Shown here piece by piece: positions 24,365 through 37,801 of a stretch of 64,000 nt of DNA. This stretch comes from Amycolatopsis echigonensis (GTDB lineage: Bacteria; Actinomycetota; Actinomycetes; Mycobacteriales; Pseudonocardiaceae): NCBI RefSeq assembly GCF_014174495.1, contig NZ_JACJHR010000020.1:1-64000 (forward strand), given 5' to 3'. Position numbers and translations under genes: made by a program. The notes below the pieces were generated by a model. It did not search any database. It was not told the DNA's origin and saw nothing but the letters and a program-made list of their open reading frames with translations. How positions within the stretch are numbered: position 1 is the first letter of the stretch; each line of letters starts with the position of its first letter.

Positions 24365-26157
24365 GCGTCGTCGAGCCCATCACCGACTCGAACAGCACCA
24401 CCGGCGCGGGCGTCGCGGACAGCTGGCACAGCGTCGTCTCGTCGATCCAGGAGATCCAGCACCTGCACGGCGCGGACGCGGCCGCGGTGGGCGTCGAGAT
24501 CGGCGTGTCGATCGTCGGCGCGATCGCGGACACCGCGGCGTTCGTCGTCGACCCGTTCGGCAAGCTGATCGCGGCCGGGCTCGGCTGGCTGATCGAGCAC
24601 ATCTCGTTCCTCAAAGAGGGCCTCGACAAACTCGCCGGCGACCCCGCGGCGATCAAGAAGATGGCCGAGGAACTGCACAAGACCGCCCAGAATCTGCGCA
24701 ACGCGGCGAAGGACCTCGACGCCACGCTGCAGAAGACGGTCGTCAGCTGGGAGGGCGAGGGCGCCGAGGCGTTCAAGAAGAACATCAGCGACCGGCGCGG
24801 CCAGATCGACAGCGCCGGGCAGGCGGTCGATGTCGCGGGCTATGTCGTCGAGACGACGATGGCTCTGGTCACCGTGGTGCGCTCGCTGATCCGCGACATG
24901 ATCACGACGTTTCTCGGCGACGTCATCGCGACCATGCTGATCGCGCTCGCGATGGCGGCGTTCACGTTCGGCGCGTCCATCGTCGTCGGGGTGGGCAACG
25001 TGATCCGGTCGGGGATCTCGCTGGCGCTGACGATGGCGTCCAAGATCGCCCGGCTGGTCGGCCTCGGCGGGCGGACCGCGAGCCGGCTGGCCCAACTGGC
25101 GGAGAAGGTCAAGCCCGGTCGCGGCAGCGGCGGCAGCACACACAGCGGGAACGACCACGAGATGACCGACCTTCCGCACGGCACCGGCGGGGACCACGGC
25201 GGCGGGGGCGGCGGTCAGGGCGGAGAGGGCAGTCACGGCCGAACCAACACTCCGCACGACGACACTCCCGGTGGGAACGACCACCACGAAGACACTCCCG
25301 GCGGGACCAGCCAGCACGAGGACCCGCCCGGCAACACCACGAACCACGAAGACACCCCGGGCGGCAACGACCACCACGAAGACACCCCGGGCGGAAACAA
25401 CCACCACGAAGACGCGCCGCGCGGGAACAATCAGCCGCACGAGGACGACCCGTTCGACACCTGGCTGGCCGCGGACCAGCACTTCAACCCGCCGCCCGAC
25501 CGCCCGCACGACTCCCCGGGTGGCAACACGCACCACGAGGACGCCCCGGGCGGCGGCAACCACGAGAACTCACCGGGCAACAACAACACCGGCCACGACA
25601 ACACGCCCGGGAACAACTCGCACGAGGACGCGCCCGGGAACAACAACCACGAGGACCCGCCGGGCAACACCACGAATCACGAAGACGCACCCGGCGGGAA
25701 CCCCAACCACGAGGACAACCCGGGCGGCACCAACCATCACGAGGACGACCAGGGCGGCGGAAACCACGAGAACGGCGGTGGCGGCGGGAACGAGCCGCAG
25801 TCCCCGTTCAAGCCGTACGACTTCGACTGGATGAAGAAGCACGAAGGCTGGCTGGCGAACGTCTGCGACATCCCCGCCATCCAGAAGTACACCGGCGGGA
25901 AGAACGTCTGGAAGGACATCGTCAAGGGCCCGGACGAGTACTTCAAGACGCACCCGAGGCTGTACCCGTTCCTCAAGGGCTTGGCCGACGCCAAGAGCAG
26001 CAAGAACTTCGCCGGCTGGATCGGCAAGGACGCGATCAACTTCGACAAGTCGATCACCGACATCCAGATGCAGGCCGAGGAAGCCTGGAACGCCTCGGAC
26101 GAGGAGTGGCGCAAGGAGCATCCGGACCCGGCCGCCGAAGGAAGCACCGCGGAGTAA
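24361..26157 (+). CDS. WXG-domain protein with a His/Asp/Glu-rich repeat array
   Basis: A 598-residue protein. The first 160 residues are helical with a WEG turn (VVSWEGEGAEAFKKN), as in WXG100/LXG-type type VII substrates. Hydrophobic helices follow at about 165-225. Residues of about 296-476 form about 14 degenerate ten-residue units of the type NHHEDTPGG, split by a non-repeat insert around 360-385. A C-terminal domain of about 110 residues (from SPFKPYDFDWMKKHEGWLAN) is charged and aromatic, with no recognised family. There is no signal peptide. It is coupled to the EspC-like gene and no immunity-like gene follows, so a toxin role is not supported. Confidence 0.8.
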   Translation: MSVVEPITDSNSTTGAGVADSWHSVVSSIQEIQHLHGADAAAVGVEIGVSIVGAIADTAAFVVDPFGKLIAAGLGWLIEHISFLKEGLDKLAGDPAAIKKMAEELHKTAQNLRNAAKDLDATLQKTVVSWEGEGAEAFKKNISDRRGQIDSAGQAVDVAGYVVETTMALVTVVRSLIRDMITTFLGDVIATMLIALAMAAFTFGASIVVGVGNVIRSGISLALTMASKIARLVGLGGRTASRLAQLAEKVKPGRGSGGSTHSGNDHEMTDLPHGTGGDHGGGGGGQGGEGSHGRTNTPHDDTPGGNDHHEDTPGGTSQHEDPPGNTTNHEDTPGGNDHHEDTPGGNNHHEDAPRGNNQPHEDDPFDTWLAADQHFNPPPDRPHDSPGGNTHHEDAPGGGNHENSPGNNNTGHDNTPGNNSHEDAPGNNNHEDPPGNTTNHEDAPGGNPNHEDNPGGTNHHEDDQGGGNHENGGGGGNEPQSPFKPYDFDWMKKHEGWLANVCDIPAIQKYTGGKNVWKDIVKGPDEYFKTHPRLYPFLKGLADAKSSKNFAGWIGKDAINFDKSITDIQMQAEEAWNASDEEWRKEHPDPAAEGSTAE

Positions 26158-34095: not shown

Positions 34096-34201
34096 TCTGG
34101 ATTCTCCGCTCGCCCGCTGGTTTCCCGAAAGCATATCCCGGCCGTGGGCCCGTCGCTTTAGGACAGTCTGGCCGAATTGCCGGGCATTCTCAGCGTCCTG
34201 C

Positions 34202-34257: not shown

Positions 34258-35652
34258 ATGCCTGCCGGGCGCGGTACGGAATTGCGGCTGCTTCTGTTCG
34301 CGGTGGGGATCGTCTGGTGTGCGTTCCTGCTCGTGGACGCGAACGCCTTGGCGCGGATCGACTCCGCGGTAGTCGGCTACGGCGCCTCGTTCACCGCGGT
34401 GGTGGCGGCAGCACACCTCGCGGTCCGGCGCTGGGCCCCGCACGCCGACCCGCTGATCCTGCCCTGCACCGCGCTGCTGAACGGGCTGGGCCTGGTGGTG
34501 ATCCACCGGATCGACCTCGGGCTCGCCGAACAGGCGGGGCAGCGGGGCAAGGTGTACTCGGCCGTCGCCGGACAGCAGGTCCTGTGGACGGTCGTGGCGC
34601 TGGTGTTGTTCCTCGCGGTGCTCGGGTTCGTGCGCGATCACCGGGTGCTGACCCGGTACGGCTACCTCGCCGGACTGGCCGGGATTGTCGCGGTTCTGCT
34701 GCCCGCGCTGCTGCCCGCGTCGCTCTCGGAGGTGAACGGCGCGAAGGTGTGGATCAAGATCGGCCCGATGTCGATCCAGCCGGGCGAGTTCGCGAAGCTG
34801 CTGCTGATCGTGTTCACGGCGACCACGCTGGTGGCGAAACGGGAGCTGTTCCGGGTCGCCGGGCGGAAGGTGCTCGGCATCGAACTGCCGCGGGCACGCG
34901 ACCTCGGGCCGATCATCATCGCCGCGCTCGGCTGCGTCGCGGTGCTGGCGTTCGAGAAGGAACTCGGCGCCTCGCTGCTGTTCTTCGGGATCGTCCTGGT
35001 GATGATCTACCTCGCGACCGAGCGGGCGATCTGGATCTACGCCGGGCTGACGGTGTTCGTCGGCGGCTGCGTGCTGGCCTACTTCCTGTTCAACCACGTG
35101 CGGCAGCGCGTCGCGAACTGGCTCGACCCGCTCGCGACCTACGACCAGGCAGGCGGCGGATACCAGATCGCCCAGGGCCTGTTCGGCCTCGGCACCGGCG
35201 GCATGGGCGGAACCGGCCTCGGCGCGGGCCGGCCGGACATCGTGCCCGAGTCGAACACCGACTTCATCACCGCCAGCATCGGCGAGGAACTGGGCTTCCT
35301 CGGACTGGCCGCGGTGCTGATGCTGTACCTGCTGATCGCCCTGCGCGGAATGCGGCACGCGCTCGCCGTCCGGGACAGCTTCGGCAAACTCCTCGGCGGC
35401 GGGCTGGCGTTCACCGTGGTGATGCAGATTTTCGTGGTCGTGGGCGGGGTGACGAAGCTGATTCCGGAAACCGGGATCACCGCACCGTTCCTCTCGAAGG
35501 GCGGCTCGTCGCTGCTCGCGAACTACATCCTGGTCGCACTGCTGCTGCGTATTTCGGACGCCGCGCGCCAGCCGAGCGCGACAGAACCGGTGCAGGCGGC
35601 ACGGGCGCCGTTGGCTGATGCGGGAACGGTGCTGGTCAAACGGCCTCGCTGA
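34258..35652 (+). CDS. FtsW/RodA/SpoVE family peptidoglycan polymerase (extra paralogue)
   Basis: A 464-residue SEDS protein with about 11-12 hydrophobic helices. The conserved catalytic region is present in WIKIGPMSIQPGEFAKLLLI, and FGLGTGGMGGTGLGAGRPDI and ITAPFLSKGGSSLLANYI are family signatures. SEDS proteins are glycan polymerases that pair with class B PBPs. No pbp gene is adjacent, so this appears to be an orphan copy separate from the usual ftsW and rodA loci. Its last 31 codons are duplicated 190 bases downstream. Confidence 0.9.
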   Translation: MPAGRGTELRLLLFAVGIVWCAFLLVDANALARIDSAVVGYGASFTAVVAAAHLAVRRWAPHADPLILPCTALLNGLGLVVIHRIDLGLAEQAGQRGKVYSAVAGQQVLWTVVALVLFLAVLGFVRDHRVLTRYGYLAGLAGIVAVLLPALLPASLSEVNGAKVWIKIGPMSIQPGEFAKLLLIVFTATTLVAKRELFRVAGRKVLGIELPRARDLGPIIIAALGCVAVLAFEKELGASLLFFGIVLVMIYLATERAIWIYAGLTVFVGGCVLAYFLFNHVRQRVANWLDPLATYDQAGGGYQIAQGLFGLGTGGMGGTGLGAGRPDIVPESNTDFITASIGEELGFLGLAAVLMLYLLIALRGMRHALAVRDSFGKLLGGGLAFTVVMQIFVVVGGVTKLIPETGITAPFLSKGGSSLLANYILVALLLRISDAARQPSATEPVQAARAPLADAGTVLVKRPR

Positions 35653-35844
35653 GCCGTCAGCCGTCCCGAACACACGGCAAGCCATCGACCCGGAGCCGCG
35701 GAGGCGAGCAACGGGTCTTCCCGCGAGCACTCGCACCCGACCTCCGGACGCGGCACGCCAGCCAAGTGCGACAGAACCGGTGCAGGCAGCGCGGGCGCCG
35801 TTGGCCGACGCGGGAACGGTGCTGGTCAAACGGCCTCGATGAGC
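35555..35844 (+). pseudogene. Duplicated 3' end of the rodA-like gene
   Basis: Bases 35745-35844 repeat 35555-35654 at an offset of exactly 190. Read in the frame of the gene, both copies encode DAARQPSATEPVQAARAPLA plus DAGTVLVKRPR and a stop. The nine differences are all in third positions and all synonymous. The second copy has no full gene in front of it, so it is the relic of another allele or paralogue that evolved as coding sequence. Confidence 0.85.
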
Positions 35845-35929
35845 TAGATGACGGAATAGGGACGACTTGAGGACGGCGCATGTCAGCGTGTCTCCCGTCC
35901 AGTCATCTACTGCGAAAGGACTGACATGC
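35845..35929 (+). promoter_or_regulatory. Leader of the secreted lectin-like gene with interleaved complementary segments
   Basis: TAGATGAC (35845-35852) pairs with GTCATCTA (35902-35909), and GCATGTCAG (35878-35886) pairs with CTGACATGC (35921-35929). The order a-b-a'-b' is a pseudoknot topology, and the last segment includes the ATG at 35926. The AAAGGA site sits between a' and b'. This could control translation; it may also be two unrelated operator repeats. Confidence 0.4.
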
Positions 35930-36393
35930 CATCGAGGGGAATGCTGCTGCGGATCGCCGGAGCGGGCGCGGGTGCCGCGATGCTCACTGCCGCCCTGTCC
36001 GGCACCGCCTACGCGGGGGAGCAATCCGTCGCCGCCGGCGCGAACTTCAAGATCCATCGCGCGGGAACGAGCTCCTGCTTGGACAGCAACACGGGAGGGG
36101 ATGTCTACACGCTCACGTGCAACGGCGGGCGAAACCAGGTATGGACCAACTACGCCCCGGGCAAGTTCCGGAACCTGGCGACCAACGCCTGCCTCGCCGC
36201 GAGCAGAACGGCCGTTTTCACCACGACCTGCTCGTCCAACACCACTGACTGGACGACTTCGTCCACGACGAACAAGTACGTCAAGAACGTTCAGACCGGG
36301 CTCTGCCTGAACAACAGCGGCGGCAGCCCCGAAGCGGTCGGGGTGCGGATCTGCCACGCGCCGACCGCGCTGTGGACCATGGAACGGGTCTGA
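35926..36393 (+). CDS. Secreted ricin-type beta-trefoil-like protein
   Basis: A 155-residue protein with a signal peptide (MLLRIAGAGAGAAMLTAALS, cleaved near AYAG). The mature domain has three similar segments with paired Cys and Trp: SCLDSNTGG to NQVWTNY, ACLAASRTA to TTDWTTS, LCLNNSGGS to TALWTMERV. This is the QxW-type beta-trefoil pattern of ricin-B lectins, so sugar binding is likely; the ligand is unknown. The ribosome-binding site is AAAGGA five bases before the ATG. Confidence 0.8.
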   Translation: MPSRGMLLRIAGAGAGAAMLTAALSGTAYAGEQSVAAGANFKIHRAGTSSCLDSNTGGDVYTLTCNGGRNQVWTNYAPGKFRNLATNACLAASRTAVFTTTCSSNTTDWTTSSTTNKYVKNVQTGLCLNNSGGSPEAVGVRICHAPTALWTMERV

Positions 36394-36402
36394 CCCTTGA
36401 AG

Positions 36403-36434
36403 CCGGTGGGCCGTTCGCGAGAGCGGCCCACCGG
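36403..36434. terminator. Bidirectional hairpin terminator
   Basis: CCGGTGGGCCG and CGGCCCACCGG form an 11-bp perfect stem between the convergent lectin-like and deaminase genes. Confidence 0.8.
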
Positions 36435-36435
36435 G

Positions 36436-37776
36436 CTACCCGTCTTCCCGCAGCCGGGCGCTCGCCTTCGCCAGCTCGCTCGCGATCGCCGACTCGTCCG
36501 CCGTCCTCAGCTGGCCTGTCTCCACCACGGTCTTCCCGCCCACGAACAGCCTCCGCAGCGGCGGCGGCGCGGCCAAGACCAACGCCGCGACCGGGTCGTC
36601 GATGCCCGCGTAGTTCAGCCCGTTCAGATCCCATACCGCCAGATCCGCGAGCTTTCCCACCTCCACCGAGCCCATGTCCTGCTCGCGGCCGAGACACCGC
36701 GCGCCGCCCATCGTGCCGAGCCACAACGCTTCCCGCGTCGTCAACCCGGTCGGCCCGCCGCGTTGCCGGGCCTGCAGCAATGCCTGGTGCAGCTCCTCCG
36801 CCAAGCCGCCGGATTCGCTTGAAGCCGCGCCGTCGACGCCCAAGCCGACCGGAGCACCGGCGTCGAGCAAGTCCCGCACCGGGGCGATTCCGCTGCCCAG
36901 ACGGCCGTTCGACGTCGGGCAATGCGCGGAACCCGTCGCCGTCGCGCCGAAACGGCGGATCGCCTCCGGCGCGAGGTGCACGGTGTGCGCCAGCCAGACG
37001 TCCGACGCCAGCCAGCCCAGTTTGTCCGCGTACTCCGCGGGCGTGAGGCCGGTTTCGGCGAGGCATTGCTTTTCCTCGTCCTGGGTTTCGGCCAGGTGAG
37101 TGTGCAGCCGGACGCCCTTGCGCCGGGCCAATTCCGCCGACTCGGCCATCAGCCGCTCGGTGACGGTGAACGGCGAGCACGGGCCCGCCGCGATCCGCAG
37201 GTGCGCGTCCGGCGAGGCGTCGTGGTAGCGGTCGATCGCGGCTTCGGTGCCGAGCAGAGCGTCCTCGGCGGTCTCGACCAGGCTGTCCGGCGGCAGCCCG
37301 CCGTCCGACTCGCCGCGGTCCATCGAGCCTCGCACCAGGTGCAGCCGCAGCCCGATCCGTTCCCGCGCGGCGACGAGCGCGGCCACCTGGTCGCCGCCGT
37401 CGCGCGGGAAGACGTAGTGGTGGTCGGCGACCGTGGTGCAGCCGCTCAGGGCGAGCCGCGCCATTCCGGCGGCACCGGCGGCGTGCGTGATCTCCTCGGT
37501 CAGCTTGGCCCACACCGGATACAGCGCGACCAGCCACTCGAAGAGGGTGTGGTCGGCGGCGAGGCCGCGCGTGGCCCATTGGTAGAGGTGGTGGTGCGTG
37601 TTCACGAGGCCGGGCGTGACGAGGCAGCCAGTGGCATCGACGCGTTCGTCCACCTCGCCGGTGAAGGCGCCGTCGCCGACGGCTGCGATGCGGTCGTCCT
37701 CGAGGACGACGTGTCCGTTGCGGTACTCGGGACCGCTGACCGTCGCGATCGCGGCGTTCTCGACGACTGTCCTCAT
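36436..37776 (-). CDS. 8-oxoguanine deaminase-like amidohydrolase
   Basis: A 446-residue amidohydrolase from the ATG at 37776 (GGAGG lies 11 bases upstream; in-frame TTG and GTG starts lie just before it). Metal and catalytic sites are LVTPGLVNTHHHLYQWATRG, LHTHLAETQDEE, LAHTVHLAPEA and GLGVDGAASSES. These match the 8-oxoguanine/guanine/cytosine deaminase group of the AtzA/TrzN type. It would feed urate into the uricase pathway encoded nearby. A substrate test is needed to separate 8-oxoguanine from related triazines. Confidence 0.82.
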   Translation of the reverse strand: MRTVVENAAIATVSGPEYRNGHVVLEDDRIAAVGDGAFTGEVDERVDATGCLVTPGLVNTHHHLYQWATRGLAADHTLFEWLVALYPVWAKLTEEITHAAGAAGMARLALSGCTTVADHHYVFPRDGGDQVAALVAARERIGLRLHLVRGSMDRGESDGGLPPDSLVETAEDALLGTEAAIDRYHDASPDAHLRIAAGPCSPFTVTERLMAESAELARRKGVRLHTHLAETQDEEKQCLAETGLTPAEYADKLGWLASDVWLAHTVHLAPEAIRRFGATATGSAHCPTSNGRLGSGIAPVRDLLDAGAPVGLGVDGAASSESGGLAEELHQALLQARQRGGPTGLTTREALWLGTMGGARCLGREQDMGSVEVGKLADLAVWDLNGLNYAGIDDPVAALVLAAPPPLRRLFVGGKTVVETGQLRTADESAIASELAKASARLREDG

Positions 37777-37801
37777 GCGACAACTCACCTCCGGGAGATC
37801 T

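Follow-up and report, generated by a model that had tools for sequence, protein, structure and literature searches.

The window analysed here, a stretch of 64,000 nt from the genome of the soil bacterium Amycolatopsis echigonensis, contains a rodA-like cell-wall gene whose 3' end is followed, after a spacer, by a second and very similar copy of that end, and the question raised by this locus is where the second copy came from. A repeat search recovered the pair of 100-nt repeats at an offset of 190 that had been described in the original prediction, with 91% identity between the copies (Table 1). The claim that the copies differ only at third codon positions also held: all nine differences (at 35562, 35565, 35574, 35577, 35598, 35601, 35616, 35619, and 35649) occupy that position in the rodA frame and all are synonymous. 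Seven of the nine are transitions, and copy 1 (from 35557) and copy 2 encode an identical 31 residues followed by a stop. Outside the 100-nt repeat, 7 of 30 bases match on the left and 7 of 30 on the right, and the homology of the repeat therefore ends sharply. The rodA-like gene is listed with an assumed ATG start; a TTG at 34177 is likewise open.

Table 1. Features at and around the duplicated rodA tail, with coordinates in the 64,000-nt window.
Feature	Position	Strand	Basis
rodA-like gene, the genome's second RodA/FtsW/SpoVE-family gene	34258..35652	+	PF01098, E 9.2e-78; open reading frame
Copy 1: end of the intact rodA-like gene plus GC past the stop	35555..35654	+	Repeat search, codon comparison
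Spacer between the copies, 90 nt	35655..35744		Full-length match in none of the other genus genomes (80 searched)
Probable ami 3'-end remnant, ASAR codons, 4-nt gap	35705..35734	-	Control windows; alignment with A. dendrobii (G016)
Junction zone, about 9-10 nt explained by neither side	35735..35744		Sequence reading; flank comparison
Copy 2: orthologous rodA 3' end without a gene body	35745..35844	+	Repeat search, codon and ortholog comparison
Hairpin region from copy 2 to the lectin gene	35843..35915	+	MFE -30.9, z -2.81; counterpart in G071 -33.8, z -2.35
Small ricin-B-type lectin gene	35926..36393	+	PF00652, E 3.9e-13; ortholog intact in G071, 90% aa
Strong terminator-like hairpin between lectin and amidohydrolase genes	36405..36432		Fold of 36405-36440: MFE -27.7, z -4.83
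Amidohydrolase-family gene (ami), convergent to rodA	36436..37788	-	PF01979, E 1e-56; rodA neighbour in this genome and eight relatives

Six other families of direct repeats within 5 kb are listed for the whole window, two of them belonging to a repetitive protein-coding array and the other four having copies with 67-87% likeness. A repeat array with a 30-nt period lies at 25212-25787 and would be rich in Asp, Gly, His, and Asn if translated. A survey of rarity covered 854,400 bases (454,400 from this genome and 400,000 from a relative, G071, in pieces that were not a random choice) and retained pairs of at least 60 nt with an identity cut-off of 78%. Among the nine pairs found, the rodA-tail repeat was the sole one with every difference in a single codon phase. 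The same filter missed a 76% identical scar of an ami tail in G071, and older scars are therefore undercounted in this survey.

One origin to be weighed is a duplication made in place in this genome and altered by later drift, the 90-nt spacer being filler. A. orientalis DSM 43388 seems to carry a scar of this sort at this very junction, so that a similar layout can arise without a donor, and the nearest sequence to either copy is the other. Duplication in place fits poorly with the DNA that follows the copies, as a plain tandem would give the same sequence after both and the two flanks are unlike, and it fits poorly with the nine of nine synonymous differences. The chance that a random change in the rodA tail is synonymous is 0.29-0.32; the chance that all nine are so is 1e-5 to 4e-5 if all of them fell in an unconstrained copy, and the chance of an all-synonymous outcome is 0.0006-0.0011 if six changes fell in copy 2 and 0.007-0.011 if four did. 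Orthologous rodA tails provide a comparison, with 8-20 nucleotide differences and 0-7 amino acid changes in 21 species pairs (drawn from seven relatives, G009 being excluded for its difference in length). The tails of G071 and A. dendrobii, with eight differences and no amino acid change, are a precedent among orthologs, while 20 of the 21 pairs have some amino acid change, and nine differences with none is lowish for orthologs as well. Judged from these codon comparisons, drift in a duplicate without function is a disfavoured source of the differences, and copy 2 resembles a tail that was still coding when it diverged; its silent differences would already have been there at the joining because they evolved in coding sequence. 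We consider duplication in place highly unlikely.

The place of copy 2 becomes clearer in the relatives in which the rodA-like gene adjoins ami. This arrangement was found in nine genomes, namely this one and eight relatives, among them A. dendrobii (G016), A. orientalis DSM 43388 (G035), A. rubida (G045), A. circi (G012), and A. nivea (G032). Elsewhere, rodA and ami were not seen as neighbours among the matches listed, the two lying on separate contigs or far apart; where inspected, the rodA matches of those other genomes were to the other RodA-type gene, which limits the result to the pair not being seen. Seven of the eight relatives have a single rodA end, and A. orientalis has an additional short one. 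In G071 and A. dendrobii the rodA end leads into the same DNA that follows copy 2 in the window, namely a leader hairpin, the lectin gene, and the convergent ami. Copy 2 therefore occupies the ordinary place of the rodA end in a lectin-bearing locus. The hairpin after copy 2, which may be a terminator or a leader, has the outer arms TAGATGAC and GTCATCTA, and G071 has a similar hairpin. The lectin gene is intact in this genome and in G071, broken in A. dendrobii, present as a remnant in A. rubida, and absent from this site in the other five. By eye its product has a signal-like N-terminus and looks secreted. Lectin-like proteins with 43-55% identity occur in four further genomes of the genus.

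Comparison of the loci also bears on the possibility that the copies are an att-site pair left by an integrative element that inserted at the gene's 3' terminus with a replacement tail and was later lost. In favour of this, integrative elements that insert into gene tails carry replacement tails with silent changes. Against such a remnant, only 90 nt separate the copies, these are partly ami-like, and they hold neither a recombinase gene nor an element body; none of four neighbouring proteins scanned is a recombinase, and the lectin-bearing G071 and A. dendrobii have a single rodA end. An integrative element is in our view very improbable.

The original prediction had read the second copy as the tail of an ortholog or a paralogue brought in by recombination. 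The ortholog half of that reading stands, with coding-type divergence and an orthologous flank, and the paralogue half does not. The other RodA-type gene of the genome, on C112, has a different tail (DAARRPATRPKPQQ...), one similar to those of four more distant members of the genus (the four compared out of five), and we therefore reject it as the donor of copy 2. An outside donor is not singled out either, since each copy is nearer to the other (nine differences) than to any of the seven tabulated relatives (10-17 differences). Neither of the two alternatives expected of related genomes was borne out. The allele of copy 2 had no match when an exact pattern was compared with the named genomes, from which records very near to the window's own genome are perhaps omitted, and no side-by-side pair of intact rodA-like genes appeared among the matches listed for 80 genomes of the genus.

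The left side of the seam lies in the 90-nt spacer. Outside its own locus, its matches in the 80 genomes of the genus were short and at chance level, and local alignment with the whole loci of nine relatives gave no match above the best of 30 shuffles. Read on the minus strand, the last part of the spacer encodes ASAR, like the end of ami, with an adjoining 4-nt gap in the alignment with A. dendrobii. Compared with the ami tails of nine genomes, the spacer reached a best score of 29, which was equalled in 5 of 2705 control windows, and a summed score that 13 of 2705 reached, which puts the match at a p of only about 0.002-0.005; the corresponding counts for the forward strand by itself were 3 and 12 of 1352. 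Of 300 letter shuffles per genome, none reached the spacer-ami score for A. dendrobii and 5 did so for the ami of the window itself, against 19 to 281 for the remaining seven. The spacer probably ends in a remnant of an ami tail, a reading that its position supports and does not prove. If this is right, copy 1 and the spacer would together represent a lectin-free version of the locus, composed of rodA, about 50 nt, and an ami tail.

Taken together, these results lead us to propose, with a probability of roughly three in four, that the site is a recombination junction at which two orthologous versions of the rodA-ami region, from closely related Amycolatopsis lineages, meet at a non-homologous seam. 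In the first version, rodA ending in copy 1 would be followed by a short gap and then by the ami tail, the presence of this tail in the spacer being a modestly supported part of the model. The segment from the second version would begin 100 nt ahead of its rodA stop and extend through the lectin gene and ami, and the two would have been joined end to end. One end of the exchange would have been homologous, within rodA upstream or ami downstream, leaving the outer genes intact on both sides, and the other would have been joined without homology at about 35735-35745. Such an event would combine homology with illegitimate joining in one step, perhaps by Ku-dependent end joining; the genome has two Ku-family matches, which make end joining available and no more. 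With close relatives at almost equal distances and with conflicting flank trees, which place this genome beside G009 for rodA and beside G048 and A. orientalis on the right side, neither identity profiles nor trees give a clean shift at the junction, and the flanks do not show which of the two sides was acquired.

The same product could also arise in two steps and without a hybrid event, if a circular or long donor had entered by a single crossover to give a tandem rodA-ami arrangement, from which a deletion then removed the DNA between the first ami tail and the second rodA tail. The remnant of a deleted tandem gene, offered as an alternative in the original prediction, would be of this type. 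Circularization followed by a single crossover is named as a fate of linear DNA in a study of E. coli (PMC3240628). This route needs two events, and the tandem intermediate is absent among the matches listed for the 80 genus genomes, so that we regard it as unlikely, though with a real chance of being correct.

The recombination junction proposed here has a close counterpart in homology-facilitated illegitimate recombination (HFIR), which is defined in a study of E. coli, with a rate of 3x10^-10 per recipient cell in conjugation (PMC3240628), and has been proposed for displaced gene pieces in the T6SS arrays of Vibrio cholerae (PMC5361080). As far as the available text of these accounts goes, one end of the exchange is homologous and the other is not, and the older orthologous piece remains beside the new segment, as at our locus; unlike our locus, with its 100-nt tail of a RodA-family gene, those accounts deal with effector-immunity modules or laboratory transfers. 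Two orthologous versions in series, with intact outer genes and a seam that lacks homology, are the product to be expected of an event of the HFIR type. One junction here is without homology, judged from the flank matches given above, with its left side only probably an ami tail; for the homologous junction, rodA and ami are both intact, and no shift in identity or tree was located. Another comparison is offered by the minimal mobile elements (MMEs) of Neisseria, which by definition, in the text available, are incorporated solely by homologous recombination (PMC3898611). As in an MME, the site lies between two conserved genes and its content, in this case the lectin gene, varies between relatives, the comparison in our case being between species and not strains. 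Unlike an MME as described there, the present site has one junction that looks non-homologous and a single type of cassette, and the duplicated tail and the sharp seam do not agree with incorporation by homologous recombination only. Our search of the literature found no report that treats convergent genes, tandem duplication, and recombination together in Amycolatopsis.

Duplicated tails were found at the junction in three of the nine genomes: the window's own, A. orientalis DSM 43388, and G071. In A. orientalis the end of rodA and a gap precede roughly 120 nt of ami tail; some 30 nt of rodA tail, a second gap, and the full ami come next, an arrangement like that of the window. Its duplication (L037, 1642-2058) spans 208 columns and is 88% identical, with 14 mismatches and three gap openings. 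Unlike in the window, the DNA after both copies matches and the changes occur at all codon positions: the 122-nt ami part has eight differences, one, four, and three of them at the first, second, and third positions, and four codons are changed in amino acid. On this pattern, the A. orientalis scar looks like a plain tandem duplication made in place, with later drift. In G071 an extra ami tail lies between the lectin gene and ami (L033, 2661-2810), corresponds to ami residues 425-449, and forms a 72-nt repeat. Over 66 nt it differs from the adjoining ami at 17 positions, compared with 11 for G048, 12 each for A. circi and A. rubida, 13 for the window, and 16-21 for A. dendrobii, A. nivea, A. 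orientalis, and G009, with differences at all codon positions (6, 3, and 8). This tail is nearer to the ami of four other genomes than to the one beside it, and so it probably came from another lineage and was not copied in place, unless it has drifted much since.

These scars also bear on whether the window's repeat is an artefact of assembly, in which two alleles from a mixed culture or a contaminant were joined. In favour of such an error, the genome is a draft of 302 contigs with a contamination estimate of 2.42. Against this, no long identical stretch common to the joined parts is visible at the seam, the site is internal to a 126-kb contig, and scars at the same junction are present in two other assemblies, one of which (G071) is a single contig. 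We therefore give an assembly error very little credence.

Self-comparison of 40 loci from 30 genomes placed repeats at the rodA end or the ami tail only in the window's genome, A. orientalis, and G071, the loci of the other 21 genomes mostly covering the other RodA-type gene and not the rodA-ami junction; it also returned a 45-nt pair within the rodA region of G009. The length of the gap, taken between the stop codons of rodA and of the full ami, differs in all nine genomes with the junction: it is 4, 131, 143, 234, and 325 nt in five of them, 261 in A. orientalis, -71 in G048, 664 in G071, and 783 in the window, the last two values being derived from coordinates; counted only as far as the extra tail, the G071 gap is 593 nt. 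In G048 (L035) the rodA-like gene is without its usual stop and reads about 18 codons further across the convergent end of ami. A near-perfect palindrome with arms of 20 nt lies between rodA and ami in G009 (L039, 1743-1783). From the comparison of loci, the rodA-ami junction seems to have been scarred more than once. A wider scenario, in which the junction recurrently breaks and rejoins, the three tail scars had separate origins, the lectin cassette moved in and out by way of DNA from relatives, and the non-homologous seam was perhaps made by Ku, is put forward tentatively; we think it possible and lean somewhat against it.

In conclusion, the duplicated rodA tail is most likely the trace of a DNA exchange of a kind already known, which left the gene tails of two close lineages side by side. 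The silent differences indicate that divergence of the two tails took place in coding DNA, prior to their joining, and the scar itself thus reports capture from a close relative. Natural traces of joining that is homologous at one end only have mostly been inferred from gene order. The host bacterium does not appear in the available text of the two HFIR accounts (PMC5361080, PMC3240628). While the scar leaves knowledge of the gene and of the process unchanged, it provides a small marker for counting such events in actinomycete genomes.
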